The position numbers were made by a program, and so were the translations under genes. Shown here in pieces: positions 1-5,667 of a stretch of 34,655 nt of DNA. This stretch comes from Clostridiales bacterium (lineage in GTDB: Bacteria > Bacillota > Clostridia > Christensenellales > Aristaeellaceae): positions 1 through 34,655 of the forward strand of contig JAAYOH010000068.1 in assembly GCA_012520375.1 (NCBI GenBank), in the 5' to 3' direction. The stretch's first letter is position 1; each line of letters opens with the position of its first letter. The notes beneath the pieces were generated by a model. That model had not been told where the DNA came from. It did no database searches and was given only the letters and a program-made list of their open reading frames with translations.

Positions 1-286
1 CGCGCCTCATATATTCTTTTTCCGCATCAAAGGCTGTCCGAAAGGCTTCATCGGATATGTGTATTCCACTCTGTTCCAGTTTTTCCCGGGCGATGCGATA
101 CGTACTTTCCATTGCCCGATTTCCCTCCCTTCTCGGTTGTGTGTTTTCCTGCGTTCCGGCTGTTTGCCTTCGCGGTTCCGTTCGCCGCAATGACACATGA
201 TGACCCGGAATGCGGTACTGCCCATTCGTACAGGCGCACAAAAGCGCCGTGAAAAGCGCCAATACCAAAGCCATGAATGCTTTCAT
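1..286 (-). CDS. Putative lipoprotein, N-terminal part only (gene runs off the left edge)
   Basis: An open frame starts at 286 and is still open at base 1, giving 95 residues. It begins with a hydrophobic signal (MKAFMALVLALFTALLCAC) whose last cysteine sits in a lipobox-like LCAC, so the product is probably exported and lipid-anchored. A GAGGTAG ribosome site lies about 10 bases upstream of this ATG, which supports the start over ATGs in other frames. After the signal the chain is polar and rich in Arg, Gln and Glu, with a possible helix near residues 60-95. I do not recognise a family. It follows the zinc operon on the same strand after 228 bases, but no link in function is shown. Confidence 0.6.
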   Translation of the reverse strand, partial: MKAFMALVLALFTALLCACTNGQYRIPGHHVSLRRTEPRRQTAGTQENTQPRREGNRAMESTYRIAREKLEQSGIHISDEAFRTAFDAEKEYMRR

Positions 287-514
287 GATACATTATCTAC
301 CTCGCATGTACGCATAGCGCGGGAGATGATCTCACCGGCTATAGAATTCCGAGAGAAGAGGGAACATTAAAGTGATGTGCGTGCATTGAGCGCATGGTTG
401 TAGTGTAGATCAATCTTCTGTTTCTGCCAATCCCCCAATAGCTTCCGACCATATCGGAGAACCGCCCGTCCTCGCCCAAGCGTCGAAAGGATTCTGCTGC
501 GGTAGGTGCATGTT
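287..514. other. Intergenic stretch after the zinc operon
   Basis: This holds 228 bases between the last zinc-operon gene and the partial lipoprotein. A weak minus-strand stem (CTGCTG/CAGCAG, about 18-base loop) spans the end of the upstream gene, but no T-run follows, so it is not a convincing terminator. No clear promoter for the lipoprotein gene was found. Confidence 0.4.
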
Positions 515-1144
515 TTACAGCAGCCTGGCATTTCGCAGGGTACAGTAGATATATCCGTTTTCCTGATACGTATTGAATACCCCTACTACACAGATTTCGT
601 CTTCGACCTCCGGATAATCGTCCGGAAATGTGTAATCCTCAGTGAGCACAAATTCAATGCCCTGTGCGCAGCATGCCGTAGCGTCTTGAACGACGCAGGC
701 AAAGTAGAGATGATCCGTTTCTTCGTCATAGTAGAAATCAAAGGTCCCCTTCATTTTCACCGTCTTGCCAATGTAGTTTTCCGGCGAAACCATCATATTA
801 TAGACCTCAGAGTAAACCATGGTGCTGGAGAGAACAGTCAAATCAACGTCTATGTCTTCCGCCCCATTGTCCATAGCCCCGGGATCCATGGCGGGGATGT
901 ATCCGGGTTCGCCTTGGCCTGTGCTGCTTTGTTGTGCAACCGAAGGCTCTTCCGGAGGAATTTTTTCGGATGGGCTGTCGCCGTAAGAGACGCTGCGATC
1001 TTCCTCTGCTATTCCCGCTTCCAGCACATCGTTTACACCTGCAGTTTGGGTCCCCACCCGGCCAGACGAATTGCCGGCGCTTCTGCATCCCGCCAAAGCG
1101 ACCATGATTACAAGGCAAAGAAGGGAAACACCCCATTTTCTCAT
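515..1144 (-). CDS. Zinc-operon lipoprotein with a C-terminal OB-fold-like domain
   Basis: This 209-residue product has a lipoprotein signal ending in LAGC (Cys20), an acidic Ser/Pro-rich linker to about residue 105, and a compact C-terminal domain at about 118-209. That domain carries PENYIGKTVKMKG and a paired cysteine (VVQDATACCAQG, Cys158-159). The pattern of 'PExYxGKxVxxxG' followed by a CC pair resembles the C-terminal domain of the TIGR03943/YcgQ family found in zinc-responsive loci; this is from memory, not a search. The start at 1144 is set by an ATGA overlap with the upstream permease stop; longer frames begin inside that permease. It is last in the operon, so a cell-surface role in zinc handling is inferred. 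Confidence 0.75.
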   Translation of the reverse strand: MRKWGVSLLCLVIMVALAGCRSAGNSSGRVGTQTAGVNDVLEAGIAEEDRSVSYGDSPSEKIPPEEPSVAQQSSTGQGEPGYIPAMDPGAMDNGAEDIDVDLTVLSSTMVYSEVYNMMVSPENYIGKTVKMKGTFDFYYDEETDHLYFACVVQDATACCAQGIEFVLTEDYTFPDDYPEVEDEICVVGVFNTYQENGYIYCTLRNARLL

Positions 1145-1986
1145 GTACGAACACCTCCCGTCATTTTTCCTGCTGCACAGCAGATCGCAAACGCCGCCAC
1201 ATCGACGGCAACAATGGTTGACCCCACCGGAGTTCCCGCCAGAATTGAAATGATGATCCCCACAAAGGCGCACAGGACCGATACCACAGCCGAGAAGACC
1301 GTAACCGACTTAAAGGTGTGAAACAGCCTCATTGCGGAGAGCGCCGGAAAAACGACCAGTGCGGAAACCAGAAGCGATCCCACAAGGTTCATGGAAAGAA
1401 CGATGATGACGGCGACGACGATCGCTATCAGCAGATTATAGCCGTTTGTCCTCATCCCTGTCGCTTTTGAAAAGTTTTCATCAAAGGTAACGGCGAAGAT
1501 CTTGTTATAAAACAAAAGGAATATCACGACTACGGCAATTGACAAGCCTATGCACAGGAAGACCTCCCTTGAGTTCAGCGTCAGAATGGACGTGGAGCCA
1601 AACAGTGTGCTGCATACGTCCCCGGACAGGTTTGATGAGGTGGCAAAGATATTCATGATGAGGTATCCGAACGCCAACGCGCTGACGGAGATCATGGCAA
1701 TGGCAGCGTCTCCATTGATTCTGGCATTCTGCCCCGTCCGCAGGAGCAAGATCGCGCTGATGATCGTGACCGGCAGTACCAGCAGCATTTCGTTGGTCAG
1801 ATTCAGAACGGCGGCGATGGCCATCGCTCCAAAAGCTACATGGGACAGTCCGTCTCCGATGAAAGAAAACCGTTTCAAAACAAGCGTAACGCCGAGCAGT
1901 GAGGAGCAGAGGGCGATCAAAACGCCGACAATCAACGCATATCGTACAAAGGAGTATTGGAGATACATTGCAATTTTATCAAACAC
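1141..1986 (-). CDS. znuB: Zinc ABC transporter, membrane permease (ZnuB/AdcB family)
   Basis: The 281-residue, very hydrophobic protein has about eight membrane spans and matches the ABC-3 permease family. It would form the channel through which the ATPase ZnuC drives zinc delivered by ZnuA. Family features include the early segment LLGVTLVLKRFSFIGDGLSH and the GSLLVSALVVFPALSAM region near residue 205. The GTG start at 1986 shares one base with the ZnuC stop (TAGTG), indicating translational coupling. An in-frame ATG at 1968 (MYLQYSF) is an alternative. Manganese or iron is possible for the family, but the Fur/Zur-type regulator and His-rich binding protein favour zinc. Confidence 0.93.
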   Translation of the reverse strand: MFDKIAMYLQYSFVRYALIVGVLIALCSSLLGVTLVLKRFSFIGDGLSHVAFGAMAIAAVLNLTNEMLLVLPVTIISAILLLRTGQNARINGDAAIAMISVSALAFGYLIMNIFATSSNLSGDVCSTLFGSTSILTLNSREVFLCIGLSIAVVVIFLLFYNKIFAVTFDENFSKATGMRTNGYNLLIAIVVAVIIVLSMNLVGSLLVSALVVFPALSAMRLFHTFKSVTVFSAVVSVLCAFVGIIISILAGTPVGSTIVAVDVAAFAICCAAGKMTGGVRT

Positions 1987-2696
1987 TACGCCTCACCGCC
2001 TTTTTGATGCGTCAGAAAGCATTTCCCGACATCGCTTTGCAGATATGCTTCCCTTGTGCCATAGAACACGGCAGCTCCTATGTGCAGGATATGGCTGGCA
2101 TAGCGGACAGCTGCGGCAATGTCATGGGAGACCATGATGATGGCGATGCCCTCCCGGTTAAGCTGTGCGATCAGATGATACATCTCCGACGTACCCTTGG
2201 GATCAAGCCCGGAAACCGGTTCATCCAAGAGCAGAGCCTTTTGTGTGGCGCACAGCGCTCGGGCAAGGAGAACGCGTTGCTGCTGGCCGCCGGAAAGTTC
2301 CCGATAACAGTGGTTGGCCAGCGCTGAAATCCCCATGCGTGCCATATTGTCCTCGGCAAGCTGTTTTTCTTCTTTCCTGTAAAAAGGTCTGAATCCGCAT
2401 CGCCCCTGGCATCCAGAGAGGACGATCTCTCTCACGGATGCCGGGAAGTCTTTCTGAACAACGGTCTGCTGCGGCAGGTAACCGATTTCATTCTTCCGAA
2501 GGCCGTCACCAATCAGAATCTGACCGCTGATCGGCTCCTGGAGATGGAGCAGCGCCTTGATAAGGGTGGTTTTTCCGGAGCCGTTTTCTCCCACGATGCA
2601 AAGATAATCTCCGGAACTCACGGAAAAATTCAAGCCCTGCACAATGGCGTGTGCATCATAGCCAAGGGCCAGATTCTGAATGGTGAGCAAAGCCAT
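1986..2696 (-). CDS. znuC: Zinc ABC transporter, ATP-binding protein (ZnuC/AdcC family)
   Basis: The 236-residue ATPase has all the usual ABC motifs: Walker A GENGSGKT (about 36-43), Q-loop YLPQQ (73-77), signature LSGGQ (134-138), Walker B ALLLDEP (154-160) and switch His191. It powers metal import through the adjacent ZnuB permease on the inner face of the membrane. The length is normal for the family. It lies 11 bases downstream of znuA and its stop overlaps the znuB start, so the three are co-transcribed. The metal is inferred from context. Confidence 0.95.
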   Translation of the reverse strand: MALLTIQNLALGYDAHAIVQGLNFSVSSGDYLCIVGENGSGKTTLIKALLHLQEPISGQILIGDGLRKNEIGYLPQQTVVQKDFPASVREIVLSGCQGRCGFRPFYRKEEKQLAEDNMARMGISALANHCYRELSGGQQQRVLLARALCATQKALLLDEPVSGLDPKGTSEMYHLIAQLNREGIAIIMVSHDIAAAVRYASHILHIGAAVFYGTREAYLQSDVGKCFLTHQKGGEA

Positions 2697-2707
2697 GCGT
2701 CCGTCTC

Positions 2708-3721
2708 CTACTTCAATGCGTCTTTCAAAACGGACAGGTTCTTTTCCATAACAGAAAGATAGGTCGTTCCGTTTTGAACGTCTTTTGCCGTGGTGGACTG
2801 CATGGAATCCATCGTCAGGATCCTTGCGCTCTTCGTCCGGGTGTTCCCCACGATGGTCTCTGCGATCCTTTGATCTGTCCCTTCAATCGTCATCACCGCA
2901 GGCAGAGAAAGTTCGTCCACCTTTTGGGAAAGAAAGGCTATGGTTTCAAAACTTGCTTCCGTCTCTGCCGAGCATCCTGCAAAAGCCGCGTAATAGGACA
3001 AACCGTAATCATCCACCAGGTATCGGAACGGAAAACGATCCCCGAAGAGAAGGGTGTTTACGGAAGCGCCATCCACCGCTGCCCGGTACTCGGCGTCCAG
3101 GGCATCCAGCTTTTCAACATATGAAGCCGTATTCTTTTTGTACATCCCCTCGTTGCCGGGGTCGATTTTTTGGATGGCTTCGGAAATGCTTGCTACGAGG
3201 ACAGACGCATTGCGCAGGGAGAGCCAGACGTGTTCGTCGTACTCGATCCCTTCATGCTCATGTCCTTCCGCATCATGGCCTTCGCCTTCTCCATGTTCGT
3301 GGCCGTGTGCTTCCTGCATCCCCTCAACCGCGTTTTCCTCTTTCACGGCATCGCCAAGGACATCCAACAGGTTGATAACGACCATATCCGAATTTGTCGT
3401 TTCCTGCAGGGCTTCATCCACCCATCCGTCGGATTCTCCGCCCACGTATATAAACAGGTCGCAGGAGGCTATCTTCAGGATATCCTCCGCCGTAGGCTGG
3501 AAGCTGTGGAGATCGACGCCTGTATCCAGCAGCATGGTCACTTCGGCATTTGCCGATTGATCTCCGAGAATACGCATCACCCAATCATACTCGGGGAAGA
3601 TGGTGGTTACGATCTTGATCCCGTCATTCTGTTCCTGGGCCGGACAATGAACGGAAGCGAATGAAAACAAAAGACAAAGCATCAAGATGAAAGAAATTGA
3701 AAGACAACGACTCTTTTTCAT
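2708..3721 (-). CDS. znuA: Zinc ABC transporter, extracellular metal-binding protein (ZnuA/AdcA family)
   Basis: This 337-residue cluster-A1 binding protein captures metal and passes it to the permease. It has an N-terminal signal (about 1-28), a first ligand His72 in TGVDLHSFQPT, a His-rich loop at about 139-156 (HGHEHGEGEGHDAEGHEHEG) typical of zinc-specific members, and a second ligand His164 in YDEHVW. The region where many members have the third histidine reads FGDRFPFRY (about 226-234) with no His. Cys25 follows SVH, a poor lipobox. GGAGG lies about 9 bases before the ATG at 3721. It is third in the zinc operon. Confidence 0.94.
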   Translation of the reverse strand: MKKSRCLSISFILMLCLLFSFASVHCPAQEQNDGIKIVTTIFPEYDWVMRILGDQSANAEVTMLLDTGVDLHSFQPTAEDILKIASCDLFIYVGGESDGWVDEALQETTNSDMVVINLLDVLGDAVKEENAVEGMQEAHGHEHGEGEGHDAEGHEHEGIEYDEHVWLSLRNASVLVASISEAIQKIDPGNEGMYKKNTASYVEKLDALDAEYRAAVDGASVNTLLFGDRFPFRYLVDDYGLSYYAAFAGCSAETEASFETIAFLSQKVDELSLPAVMTIEGTDQRIAETIVGNTRTKSARILTMDSMQSTTAKDVQNGTTYLSVMEKNLSVLKDALK

Positions 3722-3762
3722 GAGATAAACCTCCGGTTATTCCTTTTTTTGGGCGCAGAAAA

Positions 3763-3805
3763 CCAAGGGGGCCATTGCCCCGAATGGGGTCAGTCCACCC
3801 TTTGG
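3763..3805 (-). terminator. Nested stem-loop between the membrane-protein gene and znuA
   Basis: On the minus strand an outer stem (CCAAAGGG with CCCCTTGG, one mismatch) encloses a short CCCC/GGGG hairpin with a 4-base loop and is followed by TTTTCT. The placement between the regulator pair and znuA suggests a partial terminator or mRNA-stabilising structure that would set different levels of regulator and transporter. This is inference from base-pairing only. Confidence 0.35.
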
Positions 3806-3816
3806 CAGAGGTTTAT

Positions 3817-4170
3817 TCAATCATTCAGCCTTACTTTCTTTGAGACGGGCGTTTCCGGTGACAATGCGACCACATAGAGGAAGGCAAAAAGGAGAGTGAA
3901 AGCAGGTGCAGTGATTGCGATCTGTGCGCATGTACCGCCCAGGATCTGGCGCAGTGTATTCTCACACTGCCGGATGTAAGCACAAATCGGGCAATCTTTG
4001 CCAGTACAGTGGTGATCCTTTCCCAAAGCGATATGAAATACGGAAAACAGAACGACAACGAGCATCACCAGCCCTATGATGGCCGCTATCATTCGTTTGG
4101 ACTTTGATAAAACAGAACCGCCCATGACTACTTTCTTCATTCCCGGACGTCTTGGCATTTTCAGATACAC
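3817..4170 (-). CDS. Small membrane protein with a His/Cys motif, in the zinc operon
   Basis: The product is up to 117 residues and has two hydrophobic segments (about 27-49 and 87-106). Between them is a polar loop with GKDHHCTGKDCPICAYI and two further cysteines. The HHCxxxxCxxC arrangement looks able to bind a metal, and with two spans both termini would lie on the same side of the membrane. Placement directly after the Fur-family gene (overlap of 10 bases from this start) and before znuA points to a metal-related job, perhaps sensing or chaperoning zinc. No family name is offered. The start is uncertain: in-frame ATGs at 4140 and 4125 could serve. A coding assignment is favoured because the frame fills the gap on the operon strand. 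Confidence 0.65.
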   Translation of the reverse strand: MYLKMPRRPGMKKVVMGGSVLSKSKRMIAAIIGLVMLVVVLFSVFHIALGKDHHCTGKDCPICAYIRQCENTLRQILGGTCAQIAITAPAFTLLFAFLYVVALSPETPVSKKVRLND

Positions 4171-4574
4171 TGATCACATAACCCATAGTAAACGGTTCTC
4201 ATGGGATTCAGTTTAAAGCGGTGCTCGTCATACAGATGAGCCTGCACACCTTCAAGATCTTCGCAATGCAAATGGATCAGTTTCCCGCACCCCTCGCATT
4301 TGCAATGGAAACAAGTTTTCGCTTTCGCATGATTCTCCGCGCCCACGTACTCAAAACAGGCCGGGCTGTTGGCATCCACCGTATATTTGTTGATGATCCC
4401 CTCGTCCACAAGGCGTTCCAGCTGCCGATAAACGGTTGACTGCCCGATGGCGACCCCCTGAGACTTGAAATATGCATAGACTTCGCTGGCCGAAACATGA
4501 ACGCCCGGGATCGTTTCAAGATAGCCGAGCAGGATTTCCAGCTGCTTCGTCTTATATTTTGACCGTGGATTCAT
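4161..4574 (-). CDS. Fur-family metal-dependent repressor, probably Zur-type
   Basis: This 137-residue repressor has a winged-helix domain (about 8-72; recognition helix around GQSTVYRQLERLVDEG) and a C-terminal dimer/metal domain. The latter carries CEGC (93-96) and CDQC (133-136), the paired CxxC structural zinc site of Fur proteins, plus HLHCED (101-106). The start at 4574 is fixed by GGGAGGAGG about 8 bases upstream; the frame continues further upstream but through the promoter. It is the first gene of the zinc operon and sits under two Fur/Zur-like boxes, so autorepression with the transporter when zinc is plentiful is the simplest reading. Fur or PerR function cannot be excluded by sequence alone. 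Confidence 0.9.
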   Translation of the reverse strand: MNPRSKYKTKQLEILLGYLETIPGVHVSASEVYAYFKSQGVAIGQSTVYRQLERLVDEGIINKYTVDANSPACFEYVGAENHAKAKTCFHCKCEGCGKLIHLHCEDLEGVQAHLYDEHRFKLNPMRTVYYGLCDQCI

Positions 4575-4601
4575 AGGGCGCCTCCTCCCAAGAATATGGA
4601 A

Positions 4602-4618
4602 TCGGGAATCATTTACAA
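4602..4618 (-). promoter_or_regulatory. Candidate Zur/Fur box, start-proximal
   Basis: The plus strand reads TCGGGAATCATTTACAA. It contains the AAT-C-ATT core of 7-1-7 Fur-family operators and resembles the Bacillus Zur box half TCGTAAT. It abuts the -10 element and probably covers the transcription start, so a bound repressor would block initiation. It shares GGGAATCATTT with the second box exactly 50 bases away. Confidence 0.55.
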
Positions 4619-4646
4619 TTATAGAAACCAAAGCGCGAGTTGTCAA
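4618..4646 (-). promoter_or_regulatory. Consensus SigA promoter of the zinc operon
   Basis: On the minus strand TTGACA (4641-4646) is followed after exactly 17 bases by TATAAT (4618-4623), both perfect matches. The ATG of the repressor gene lies about 45 bases downstream. Fur/Zur-like boxes sit just upstream of the -35 and just downstream of the -10, which suits tight metal-dependent repression of a strong promoter. Confidence 0.85.
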
Positions 4647-4650
4647 GCAA

Positions 4651-4669
4651 TTTGGGAATCATTTTCAAA
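4651..4669 (-). promoter_or_regulatory. Candidate Zur/Fur box, upstream of -35
   Basis: TTTGGGAATCATTTTCAAA is a partial dyad (TTTG..AAT-C-ATT..CAAA) with the 7-1-7 layout of Fur-family operators. It lies five bases upstream of the -35 of the zinc promoter and could also affect the divergent operon, whose -35 is about 65 bases away. Confidence 0.55.
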
Positions 4670-4734
4670 ATTTAACGAGTAGGGTAAAGAAACGAGCGGG
4701 AGAACTCTGCCGCGCTATCAAACTGCAAGAAGCC

Positions 4735-4763
4735 TTGCAAATGGTACGAAAATGCGGTAGAAT
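4735..4763 (+). promoter_or_regulatory. Promoter of the ten-gene plus-strand operon
   Basis: TTGCAA (4735-4740) and TAGAAT (4758-4763) are separated by 17 bases, with the first start codon about 38 bases downstream of the -10. The same TTGCAA-17 layout is used by the amino-acid importer promoter at 21846-21874. No clear RpiR operator was identified beside it. Confidence 0.65.
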
Positions 4764-4800
4764 ACCTTAGGGAAACGGCTGTGAAAGGGATGATCAGGGG

Positions 4801-5667
4801 ATGCAAAACGCGCAGGATCTGGCCCAACGGCTGAACCGGGACGACCTCAGGCTGTCCAAAAGCCACAAGCGCATCGTGGAGTGCATCATCAGCCATTACG
4901 ACAAGGTGGCCTTTATGACCGCTTCCAAACTGGGGAAATACGTGGGCGTCAGCGAGTCCACCGTGGTGCGCCTGGCCGGTGTGCTGGGCTACAAGGGGTA
5001 TCCCCAGCTGCAAAAGGCGATACAGGAGATGATCCGCCACCGGCTCACCGCTTCCCAGCGCTTTGAAATGACCTCGGATATGGACCACACCCAGGTGCTG
5101 ACTCGGGTGCTGAAGGCGGACATGGCCAACATTCGCTCTACCATGGACGAATTGGATCTGGACGCCTTCGAGCGCGCCATCGACATGGTTTTGCAAGCGC
5201 GGCGCATATACGTGCTGGGGCTGAGGGCCAGCGCGCCGCTGGCCATGTTCCTGGCCCACTACCTGAATTTTACCTCTACCCGGGTGACAGCGGTGACTTC
5301 GGGGGTGTCAGACATTTTCGAGCAGATGTTCCGGATCGGGCCGGGGGACCTGCTCATCGGAATCAGTTTCCCCCGCTACACCCGGCGTACCGTGGAGGCC
5401 ATGCACTTTGCCCGGGGCAGGAATGCCTCCCTGATCGCCATCACGGACGGGCCTCTGTCCCCCCTCCATGCCTGTGCAGATCTGTGCCTCAGCGCCCGCA
5501 GCGATATGGCATCCTTCGTGGATTCCATGGCGGCGCCCATGTCCCTCATCAATGCCCTGATCGTGGCGGTGGGCCAGCGCCGCCGCAGCGAGGTGGGAAG
5601 TTTTTTCCAGGAGATGGAAGAGGTCTGGAACCAGTACGACGTCTATTTGAAAAAGGGAGAGACATGA
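4801..5667 (+). CDS. RpiR/MurR-family transcription regulator
   Basis: The 288-residue protein has an N-terminal RpiR helix-turn-helix (about 15-80, with AFMTASKLGKYVGVSESTVVRLAG) and a C-terminal SIS sugar-phosphate-binding domain (about 125-255). Such regulators sense phosphosugars and control the neighbouring sugar genes. It is the first gene of a ten-gene operon, and its stop overlaps the next start as ATGA. The likely ligand is an intermediate of the pathway encoded by the aldolase and kinases further along. The ribosome site before ATG 4801 is weak (AAAGGGA set far back, or a close AGGGG). Confidence 0.93.
   Translation: MQNAQDLAQRLNRDDLRLSKSHKRIVECIISHYDKVAFMTASKLGKYVGVSESTVVRLAGVLGYKGYPQLQKAIQEMIRHRLTASQRFEMTSDMDHTQVLTRVLKADMANIRSTMDELDLDAFERAIDMVLQARRIYVLGLRASAPLAMFLAHYLNFTSTRVTAVTSGVSDIFEQMFRIGPGDLLIGISFPRYTRRTVEAMHFARGRNASLIAITDGPLSPLHACADLCLSARSDMASFVDSMAAPMSLINALIVAVGQRRRSEVGSFFQEMEEVWNQYDVYLKKGET

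Follow-up and report, generated by a model that had tools for sequence, protein, structure and literature searches.

A Cys/His membrane hairpin and an OB-fold lipoprotein in a clostridial ZnuABC operon: a candidate accessory pair for extracytoplasmic zinc handling

The DNA analysed here (the window, 34,655 nt) is an entire contig, C27, of the 2.29-Mb genome (106 contigs) of a Clostridiales bacterium, and carries on its minus strand a probable zinc import operon in the order Fur/Zur, CysHis, ZnuA, ZnuC, ZnuB, OB lipoprotein. CysHis is the name used here for a small membrane protein with two spans and a Cys/His motif in the loop between them, and the last gene encodes a lipoprotein predicted to have an oligonucleotide/oligosaccharide-binding (OB) fold. 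The reading that we favour, with somewhat better than even confidence, is that these two proteins are an accessory pair that handles zinc outside the cytoplasm and is not bound to one transporter. It is carried by a linkage that is conserved, by topology signals and predicted folds, by invariant residues that look like ligands, and by two permease fusions. The link to zinc is strong; that the pair captures zinc and hands it over, rather than serving in sensing or redox chemistry, is what we infer. Transporter, regulator and OB domain belong to known kinds, CysHis is a family for which Pfam and NCBIfam have no model, the arrangement is a new variation, and a second type of operon (type II, below) is also new.

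CysHis was sought across 84,980 species genomes with the pattern C[TSL]G[EKV]DC[PAL][IL]C, which fixed three Cys and their spacing and left the His, the tail and the neighbouring genes unselected. This neighbour-blind scan returned 102 stretches, of which 77 were confirmed and 25 were not; one confirmed stretch gave no locus of its own, leaving 76 loci (below, L numbers stand for loci of this and the other searches, G numbers for genomes). By record title, the source of the taxa given for them, these loci fall into four phyla (Bacillota, Spirochaetes, Synergistaceae, Coriobacteria), the titles including Lachnospiraceae, Christensenella, Ruminococcus, Roseburia, Coprococcus, Treponema and other Spirochaetes, Synergistaceae/Fretibacterium, Coriobacteriales and Olsenella. 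A simple next-gene rule found ZnuA behind CysHis in 63 of the 76, an ATP-binding cassette (ABC) ATPase in one and nothing in 12. Counting L120, where the frames overlap, ZnuA follows directly in 64 loci, and in six more, all titled Treponema (L077, L080, L089, L090, L094, L097), one COG0523-type GTPase with a GCICC motif stands between the two (the GTPase of L077 was checked with Pfam). Directly or past this GTPase, CysHis is tied to ZnuA in 70 of the 76 loci. Three others lie at a contig edge (L067, L069, L121), and L054 and the fragment L108 are without a zinc gene. COG0523 GTPases occur within the operon in eight loci, two of them identical in layout. Fur is found no more than 300 nt upstream of CysHis in 31 of the 76, contig edges or distance possibly accounting for the remainder.

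Two further searches gave a similar picture. A hidden Markov model (HMM) search covered 149 genomes drawn from the phylum; besides the genome of the window, three had CysHis, all three with the order CysHis-ZnuA-ZnuC. A protein search of 100 relatives found it in 16 genomes (own included) at 18 loci: ZnuA is the neighbour at 14 (one of these truncated) and ZnuC-ZnuB at one, G007 has a fusion, and the remaining two are of type II. The protein is patchy in distribution and faithful to the zinc importer. A first-pass annotation of the window, made from the sequence alone, had proposed that both accessory proteins belong with zinc import and had named, as the outcome that would speak against this, a lack of conserved homologues beside zinc genes; the neighbourhood survey that it suggested placed both proteins at fixed positions in ZnuABC operons, CysHis as counted above and the OB domain after or fused to ZnuB in 45 of 55 loci.

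For sequence comparison, eight loci (two of one fusion, one fragment, five repeats) were removed from 98 hits and identical sequences were counted once, giving 88 distinct CysHis proteins. The motif H-x-C-x4-C-x2-C is present in 85 of these and a spacing variant in the other three; the H, C, C and C of the loop are invariant in 16/16 and in 40/40 aligned rows (41, then 40, rows were picked by hand after a larger set had been thinned to 72). A tail signature typified by LVSxKVRLNN is found in 83 of the 88. Ahead of the first span the net charge is positive in 79 and never negative; the loop is net negative in 78 and positive in six, and the tail is net positive in 69 and negative in seven. All 88 proteins exceed a hydropathy of 1.6 in the first span, and 82 do so in the second. 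Because of this charge pattern and the hydropathy of the spans, CysHis is most likely a hairpin with both termini inside and the loop outside. AlphaFold2 likewise models a hairpin (helix 3-30, loop 31-40, helix 41-83; predicted local distance difference test score, pLDDT, 89.9; predicted template modelling score, pTM, 0.59), in which the CxxC opens the second helix.

No Pfam model matches more than four of 41 CysHis members at an expect value (E) up to 0.1, the best E among the 25 of 28 families listed being 0.004. An NCBIfam scan of the window protein and 16 relatives gave scattered single matches for 16 members (best E 0.012) and one at chance level for the window protein. The CbtB profile found two of 41 members (best E 0.0048), which is not a family-wide match, and the CopL profile one of 16 (E 0.055), which does not place CysHis in that family. 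The Pfam and NCBIfam profiles revealed no catalytic or known signalling domain in CysHis. Against the Protein Data Bank (PDB), a sequence search with the window protein found nothing and the CysHis profile gave just two matches, at E 3 and 5. Judged from these profile searches, neither Pfam nor NCBIfam has a model for the CysHis family, itself a coherent one.

The OB lipoprotein has a Cys-Cys pair that is invariant in 24/24 and 30/30 aligned rows (the 30 picked by hand from 54 sequences thinned to 52), with a nearly invariant Asp four residues ahead of it. Its AlphaFold2 model (pLDDT 91.8) has five long strands in an OB fold. The best Foldseek match was 3f1z, a putative nucleic-acid-binding lipoprotein, followed by the OB domains of exonuclease VII, telomere and single-stranded-DNA-binding (SSB) proteins, and a second structure aligner, VIA, had OB proteins throughout the matches listed (Z 9.2, 93 residues, root-mean-square deviation 2.9 A). 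The domain is thus predicted to be a five-strand OB barrel, in support of the OB-like fold suggested at first pass. The shared fold does not establish nucleic-acid binding, for which an exported lipoprotein is an improbable place. Some relatives have no clear lipobox and begin with what resembles a plain signal peptide. A PDB sequence search with the window lipoprotein gave no matches.

The first-pass annotation had also likened this domain to the C-termini of TIGR03943/YcgQ proteins, a likeness that held only by way of relatives: the window lipoprotein itself has no DUF1980_C or TIGR03943 match in Pfam or NCBIfam at E up to 1, while 11 of 24 aligned relatives of its domain match PF21537 (DUF1980_C; best E 5e-13) and nine of 24 match TIGR03943. 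The HMM searches that it had recommended for both proteins, made here with Pfam and NCBIfam, left CysHis without a model and placed the lipoprotein through its relatives alone. The OB profile aligned with one CobW-DUF1980_C protein CC on CC, at E 1e-4 and a probability of only 58 %. These comparisons tie the domain of the window lipoprotein to DUF1980_C through relatives, with the Cys-Cys in register. It is not of the full-length TIGR03943 permease-subunit type, consisting of lipobox, linker and OB domain (209 aa) with ZnuB as partner. DUF1980_C occurs in 38 of the 100 relatives, usually in frames of about 300-380 aa, and is absent from the window's own genome. Among eight such loci examined, L123, and L127 from the part seen, are of the permease-subunit type; L124, L128 and L130 have a CobW-type GTPase domain ahead of DUF1980_C by Pfam, and L125, L126 and L129 seem to be built the same way on inspection. 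Next to L124, L125, L128, L129 and L130 lie GTPase-like proteins whose His/Asp/Glu-rich stretches are very long. Because these CobW-type fusions stand beside His-rich GTPase-like proteins, the DUF1980_C-type OB domain has likely zinc proteins as its neighbours both inside and outside the cell membrane.

A search with the last 101 residues of the lipoprotein found OB relatives in 25 of the 100 genomes, at 26 loci, and ZnuB lies upstream of the OB gene in 19 of these (3-kb locus). The other seven comprise two near a contig edge, two deletion cases, one beside CysHis without ZnuABC, and two unlinked. Seen from the other gene, 55 of the 76 CysHis loci show ZnuB, and the OB domain was adjacent to it in 43 and fused to it in two. 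The fusions are single ZnuB-OB reading frames in L088 (Treponemataceae) and L059 (Lachnospiraceae), two independent cases, both from metagenome assemblies in which an assembly error is possible. The ten loci without an OB match include L112, with a variant OB-like lipoprotein, L071, whose copy looks frameshifted, and L096, L113 and L119, which stop at a contig edge. Among the 100 relatives, 16 have CysHis, 25 the OB domain and 12 both, against 4 expected (Fisher p 5e-6, uncorrected for kinship; the 12 genomes, like the 18 CysHis loci, include the decayed loci of G007 and G054). On closer look the four genomes with CysHis only have other OB-type partners: longer OB lipoproteins behind ZnuB in G055 and G056, and the type II lipoprotein in G017 and G046.

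Several variants of the OB gene were noted in passing. In L169 (3154-3894) and L170 (3586-4365) the lipoproteins behind ZnuB, of 247 and 260 aa, resemble tandem OB domains; in L086 (4233-5207), from a Clostridia genome, two tandem OB-type genes lie behind ZnuB; and a Treponema operon (L077, 6633-7061) has an extra OB-type gene upstream of Fur. In contig C80 of G007 (L013/L033) CysHis is joined in frame to the end of a lipoprotein, and in contig C29 of G054 (L015/L029/L081) the His-rich loop region of ZnuA is joined to a lipoprotein; both look decayed. The G007 frame was considered as a natural fusion and rejected, since the G007 and G054 junctions seem to stem from two separate deletions within a single genus.

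Three CysHis loci adjoin a LolD-type ATPase and not ZnuA (L083, L016/L137, L018/L138), the latter two from the window's own taxonomic family, and these define the type II operons. The permease is visible in L083 and L137; that of L083 has MacB and FtsX domains (Pfam) and a His-rich loop, and a search with it in the 100 relatives found it in ten genomes. In all 11 type II loci with a visible gene before the ATPase, that gene encodes a small CysHis-like protein; the CysHis family HMM matches ten of them, and L161 was recognised by its motif only. The Cys/His spacing varies in L137, L155, L157, L158, L161 and L164. Behind the permease, ten loci encode a protein with [SN]CP[FY]C that is either a lipoprotein or secreted, and L164 an OB-like SSCPY protein. 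All ten lipoproteins match DUF3299 (best E 9e-4), the score shown, 17 bits, being below the cut-off of 22, and hhalign of their profile against one DUF3299 protein gave a probability of 2 %. The L083 permease has 24.7 % identity (E 1e-28) to a Catenovulum permease encoded near a DUF3299 gene. The window OB domain and the type II lipoproteins are alike in position and in having a Cys pair, which fell in the expected register in one of two hhalign comparisons. The type II transporter, of LolD/MacB type, has no permease or binding protein in common with ZnuABC.

The recurrence of similar small proteins beside two unrelated transporters would also suit a regulator, and the foremost rival to an accessory pair is that CysHis is a membrane zinc sensor, its loop reading zinc and its tail signalling to the ATPase, Zur or the COG0523 GTPase to throttle uptake, while the OB lipoprotein presents zinc. 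The tail is conserved as noted in spite of its distance from the loop, and CysHis often lies close behind Fur. A sensor would, however, need one tail to be read by two unrelated ATPases (ZnuC and the LolD-like protein), the profiles matched no domain of a catalytic or signalling kind, and the type II proteins of L155, L156, L157 and L161 lack the loop His or have a different tail. We consider the sensor reading unlikely, if still worth weighing. Next comes a role in thiol redox chemistry, with the OB protein (CC or CPFC) and CysHis (CxxC) keeping zinc ligands of the importer reduced or forming a disulfide relay. A CxxC at a helix start, as in the CysHis model, is a trait of thiol oxidoreductases, and three of the ten type II lipoproteins have faint Redoxin matches (E 0.13 or worse). 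Against this, the modelled lipoprotein has an OB rather than a thioredoxin fold, the CysHis motif includes a third Cys and a His, and in 70 of 76 loci the setting is one of zinc import, which together make a redox role improbable.

The favoured reading of an accessory zinc-handling pair can be put as a mechanism. The two proteins would be made together with the importer, presumably under Zur control. The OB lipoprotein would be held at the external side of the membrane, where it would bind zinc through the Cys-Cys and nearby acidic residues, including the Asp, and its OB domain would feed the metal to the solute-binding protein or the permease. The CysHis hairpin would offer its Cys3-His loop as a docking or relay site at the outer surface of the membrane, and its conserved tail may contact a cytoplasmic partner, whether the ATPase, a COG0523 GTPase or Zur. 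The pair would most likely act on extracytoplasmic zinc before translocation rather than form a true part of ZnuABC; a place off the translocation path is suggested because similar pairs bracket a LolD/MacB-type transporter unrelated to ZnuABC.

A number of observations weigh against this reading. ZnuA gave 118 matches in 72 of the 100 relatives as against 18 CysHis loci, 14 of them ZnuA-linked, and most ZnuABC systems therefore do without CysHis; neither CysHis nor the OB lipoprotein was seen in a second Fur-ZnuABC locus of the window's own genome (L136). Five CysHis loci with ZnuB (L065, L080, L102, L110, L120) show no OB gene, and the OB genes of L041 and L046 have no Fur, ZnuA, ZnuB or CysHis match within 13-14 kb. 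As no Fur gene was seen in the type II operons and a simple scan found no clear Zur box there, a zinc role for them is one that we only infer. Homology of the window OB family with the DUF3299-like family of type II was tried and not upheld, hhalign giving only 22 % and 14 %, and likewise CysHis against one ZrgD-type protein, from Aeromonas, reached only 0.7 %. In Vibrio cholerae, where zrgD and zrgE hold the corresponding places in the zrg zinc import operon, losing either zrgD or zrgE alone reportedly made no difference in the presence of zinc chelators, and a zrgABCDE deletion was just very slightly worse than zrgABC (PMC9820375). The lack of a visible effect of the single deletions also favours the notion that the two genes are mere neighbours, there by hitchhiking or chance. 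That notion is hardly credible in the face of fixed positions across phyla, gene overlaps, two ZnuB-OB fusions and recurrence with a second transporter.

The window's ZnuA, ZnuC, ZnuB and Fur all score above the curated Pfam cut-offs (Table 1). In NCBIfam, the zinc models AdcA, AztA and AztB head the matches of ZnuA, ZnuC and ZnuB, all below cut-off, and the window proteins miss the NCBIfam cut-offs for AdcA, AztC, AztA, AztB, ZnuA, ZnuB and ZnuC. The His-rich loop of ZnuA and the zinc-type neighbours point to zinc as the probable cargo. Were the operon to import manganese or another divalent metal, the pair would belong to that metal instead; the MntC model scores 92.9 bits on ZnuA and the MntA model 153.8 bits on ZnuC, both below cut-off, and cluster A-I importers include manganese and iron systems (PMC9820375). 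This alternative, ranked after the redox role, is unlikely in view of the His-rich, acidic ZnuA loop, the zinc models at the top of the NCBIfam matches, the COG0523 GTPases in eight loci, the Zur-like boxes described below, and the zrg parallel, for which zinc is experimentally established. The regulator is less clear: it scores 26.3 bits with the Zur equivalog PRK11639 (cut-off 167), and 52.3 and 44.6 bits with Fur equivalogs, higher than with the Zur model and also under their cut-offs. On these equivalog scores it is a presumed Zur.

All operon genes were confirmed on the minus strand where the first-pass annotation had placed them (Table 1), including the two-span protein with its HHCxxxxCxxC loop between Fur and znuA and the CC-containing lipoprotein after znuB. 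Its view that start/stop overlaps lock both accessory genes into the operon stood for the lipoprotein, which shares 4 nt (ATGA) with znuB; for CysHis it would stand only with a GTG start at 4170, the ATG codons at 4158, 4140 and 4125 lying outside fur, and all of these starts are within 36 nt of the fur stop. The znuB start overlaps the znuC stop by 1 nt. The fur ATG is preceded by a Shine-Dalgarno-like GGGAGGAGG.

Table 1. Features of the zinc operon and its upstream region in the window
Feature	Position (nt)	Strand	Remarks
Fur/Zur-like box AAATGATTCCC (within TGAAAATGATTCCCA)	4654..4664	-	just 5' of the -35
Sigma-70-type promoter TTGACA-17-TATAAT	4618..4646	-	upstream of fur; 12/12 consensus bases
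Second, identical box AAATGATTCCC	4604..4614	-	just 3' of the -10
Fur-family repressor, presumed Zur	4161..4574	-	PF01475, 64.8 bits (cut-off 23.1)
CysHis, small two-span membrane protein	3817..4170	-	start uncertain: GTG 4170 or ATG 4158, 4140, 4125
CysHis loop motif HHCTGKDCPIC	3982..4014	-	predicted outside the membrane; presumed Cys3-His zinc site
CysHis C-terminal tail TPVSKKVRLND	3820..3852	-	conserved; predicted cytoplasmic
ZnuA, solute-binding protein, His-rich loop	2708..3721	-	PF01297, 222.5 bits (cut-off 29)
ZnuC, ABC ATPase	1986..2696	-	PF00005, 98.7 bits (cut-off 25)
ZnuB, ABC-3 permease	1141..1986	-	PF00950, 155.3 bits (cut-off 20.1)
OB lipoprotein, 209 aa	515..1144	-	lipobox LAGC, acidic linker, OB fold at residues about 98-209
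Cys-Cys pair of OB domain (C158, C159)	668..673	-	invariant in aligned rows

A scan of positions 1-5000 found eight promoter-like sites, against 4.3 expected in shuffles, and a full 12/12 match only at the promoter of fur. The exact 11-mer AAATGATTCCC occurs twice in the whole 2.29-Mb genome, both copies flanking this promoter, and its backward control not at all. As a signal at the level of the window the box was discarded, two matches with one mismatch arising in 21 of 100 shuffles, which is not unusual; the argument for the box therefore rests on the exact whole-genome count. Upstream of the 76 CysHis loci, the palindrome AAAAT-n-ATTTT (half-length five) occurs in eight, against 0.1 in mononucleotide shuffles, AAAAC-n-GTTTT in four against 0.1 expected, and GAAAATGATTTTC is intact in six. 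The boxes and the promoter are compatible with a putative Zur-type autoregulation. The commonest over-represented upstream word is TTG-n-CAA (32 loci, against 7.9 in shuffles), which the Zur-like box does not account for. Between CysHis and znuA lies a terminator-like GC hairpin (3768-3781, minus strand), a kind of site that the scan expects equally often by chance; it could set the ratio of CysHis to ZnuA. Behind the operon, the start of a further lipoprotein-like gene (2-286, minus strand), cut by the contig end, matches no Pfam or NCBIfam family above cut-off. The second Fur-ZnuABC locus of the genome (L136; G000, contig C6, 993-3912) has its Fur gene between ZnuA and ZnuC.

Among known systems, tiny membrane proteins such as CbiN/NikN and CbtB stand beside cobalt/nickel transporters. 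Their likeness to CysHis is one of working only, the transporter being of another type and the profile match not family-wide. AztD, not known to have an OB fold, resembles the OB lipoprotein in the same limited sense, and no AztD model was among the matches of the window proteins. In the AztABC system AztD is an extracytoplasmic accessory that passes zinc directly to the binding protein (PMC6689063).

Closer in structure are the TIGR03943/DUF1980 proteins, whose C-terminal OB-type domain has a Cys-Cys as in the relatives of the window lipoprotein. YcgQ of Bacillus and ScfB of group A Streptococcus presumably carry this domain. Unlike the window protein, a 209-aa lipoprotein after ZnuB, most DUF1980_C proteins of the relatives have a permease partner or include a CobW-type GTPase domain. 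The ycgR/ycgQ homologues of group A Streptococcus, scfA/scfB, matter for fitness and are of unknown function (PMC5584981). A literature search found nothing on TIGR03943, nor on an OB-fold lipoprotein with znuB and zinc; word searches did not find permease, lipoprotein, OB-fold or ycgQ in a paper on COG0523 (PMC2770081), nor lipoprotein or AztD in a review of Zur (PMC6103462).

The nearest parallel in layout is the zrg operon. In Vibrio parahaemolyticus its order, inferred from locus tags and a promoter name, is zrgD (DUF2607), zrgA, zrgC, zrgB, zrgE (DUF3299), and it is repressed by Zur and rises 76- to 206-fold when zinc is low (PMC9817125). The V. cholerae proteins are a MacB-like ZrgB, a ZrgD of 101 aa with a single span and a periplasmic ZrgE (PMC9820375); zinc import by zrg was shown experimentally, the parts played by zrgD and zrgE being unexplained. 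An Aeromonas caviae record has the zrg order with HTCTLC in its first protein (DUF2946 at 20.5 bits, below the cut-off of 23.7), ZrgA at 195.7 bits and a last gene matching DUF3299 at 149.4 bits, and a Phaeobacter plasmid has Fur, DUF2796, an ATPase, an FtsX permease and DUF3299, with no small protein in its table. Both zrg and the window operon have a small membrane protein first, then binding protein, ATPase and permease, and a surface protein last, with ZnuACB replacing ZrgACB in the window. In contrast, ZnuA and ZnuB have no relatives in ZrgA and in ZrgB with its MacB-like make-up, the OB domain of the window has a relation to DUF1980_C and no detectable one to DUF3299, and the DUF2946/DUF2607 profiles gave no match among 41 CysHis members (E up to 0.1, matches listed) or four type II members. 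As far as these comparisons go, the likeness to zrg is one of layout and motif, and not of membership.

Tentatively, and with less than even confidence, a broader proposal may be made: that a portable zinc-acquisition pair, of a Cys/His hairpin and an OB surface protein, has been paired with both ZnuABC and MacB-type Zrg transporters for a common step of capture and hand-over or gating, with analogous parts filling the positions of zrgD and zrgE, and that DUF1980_C is a zinc-handling unit, intracellular when fused to a COG0523-type GTPase. If so, the DUF1980_C domain would gain a testable function. ZnuABC is commonly drawn as a three-part machine, and, should the accessory-pair reading be true, the two proteins that flank it here would represent an overlooked step of import, in places like those that ZrgD and ZrgE take around ZrgACB.

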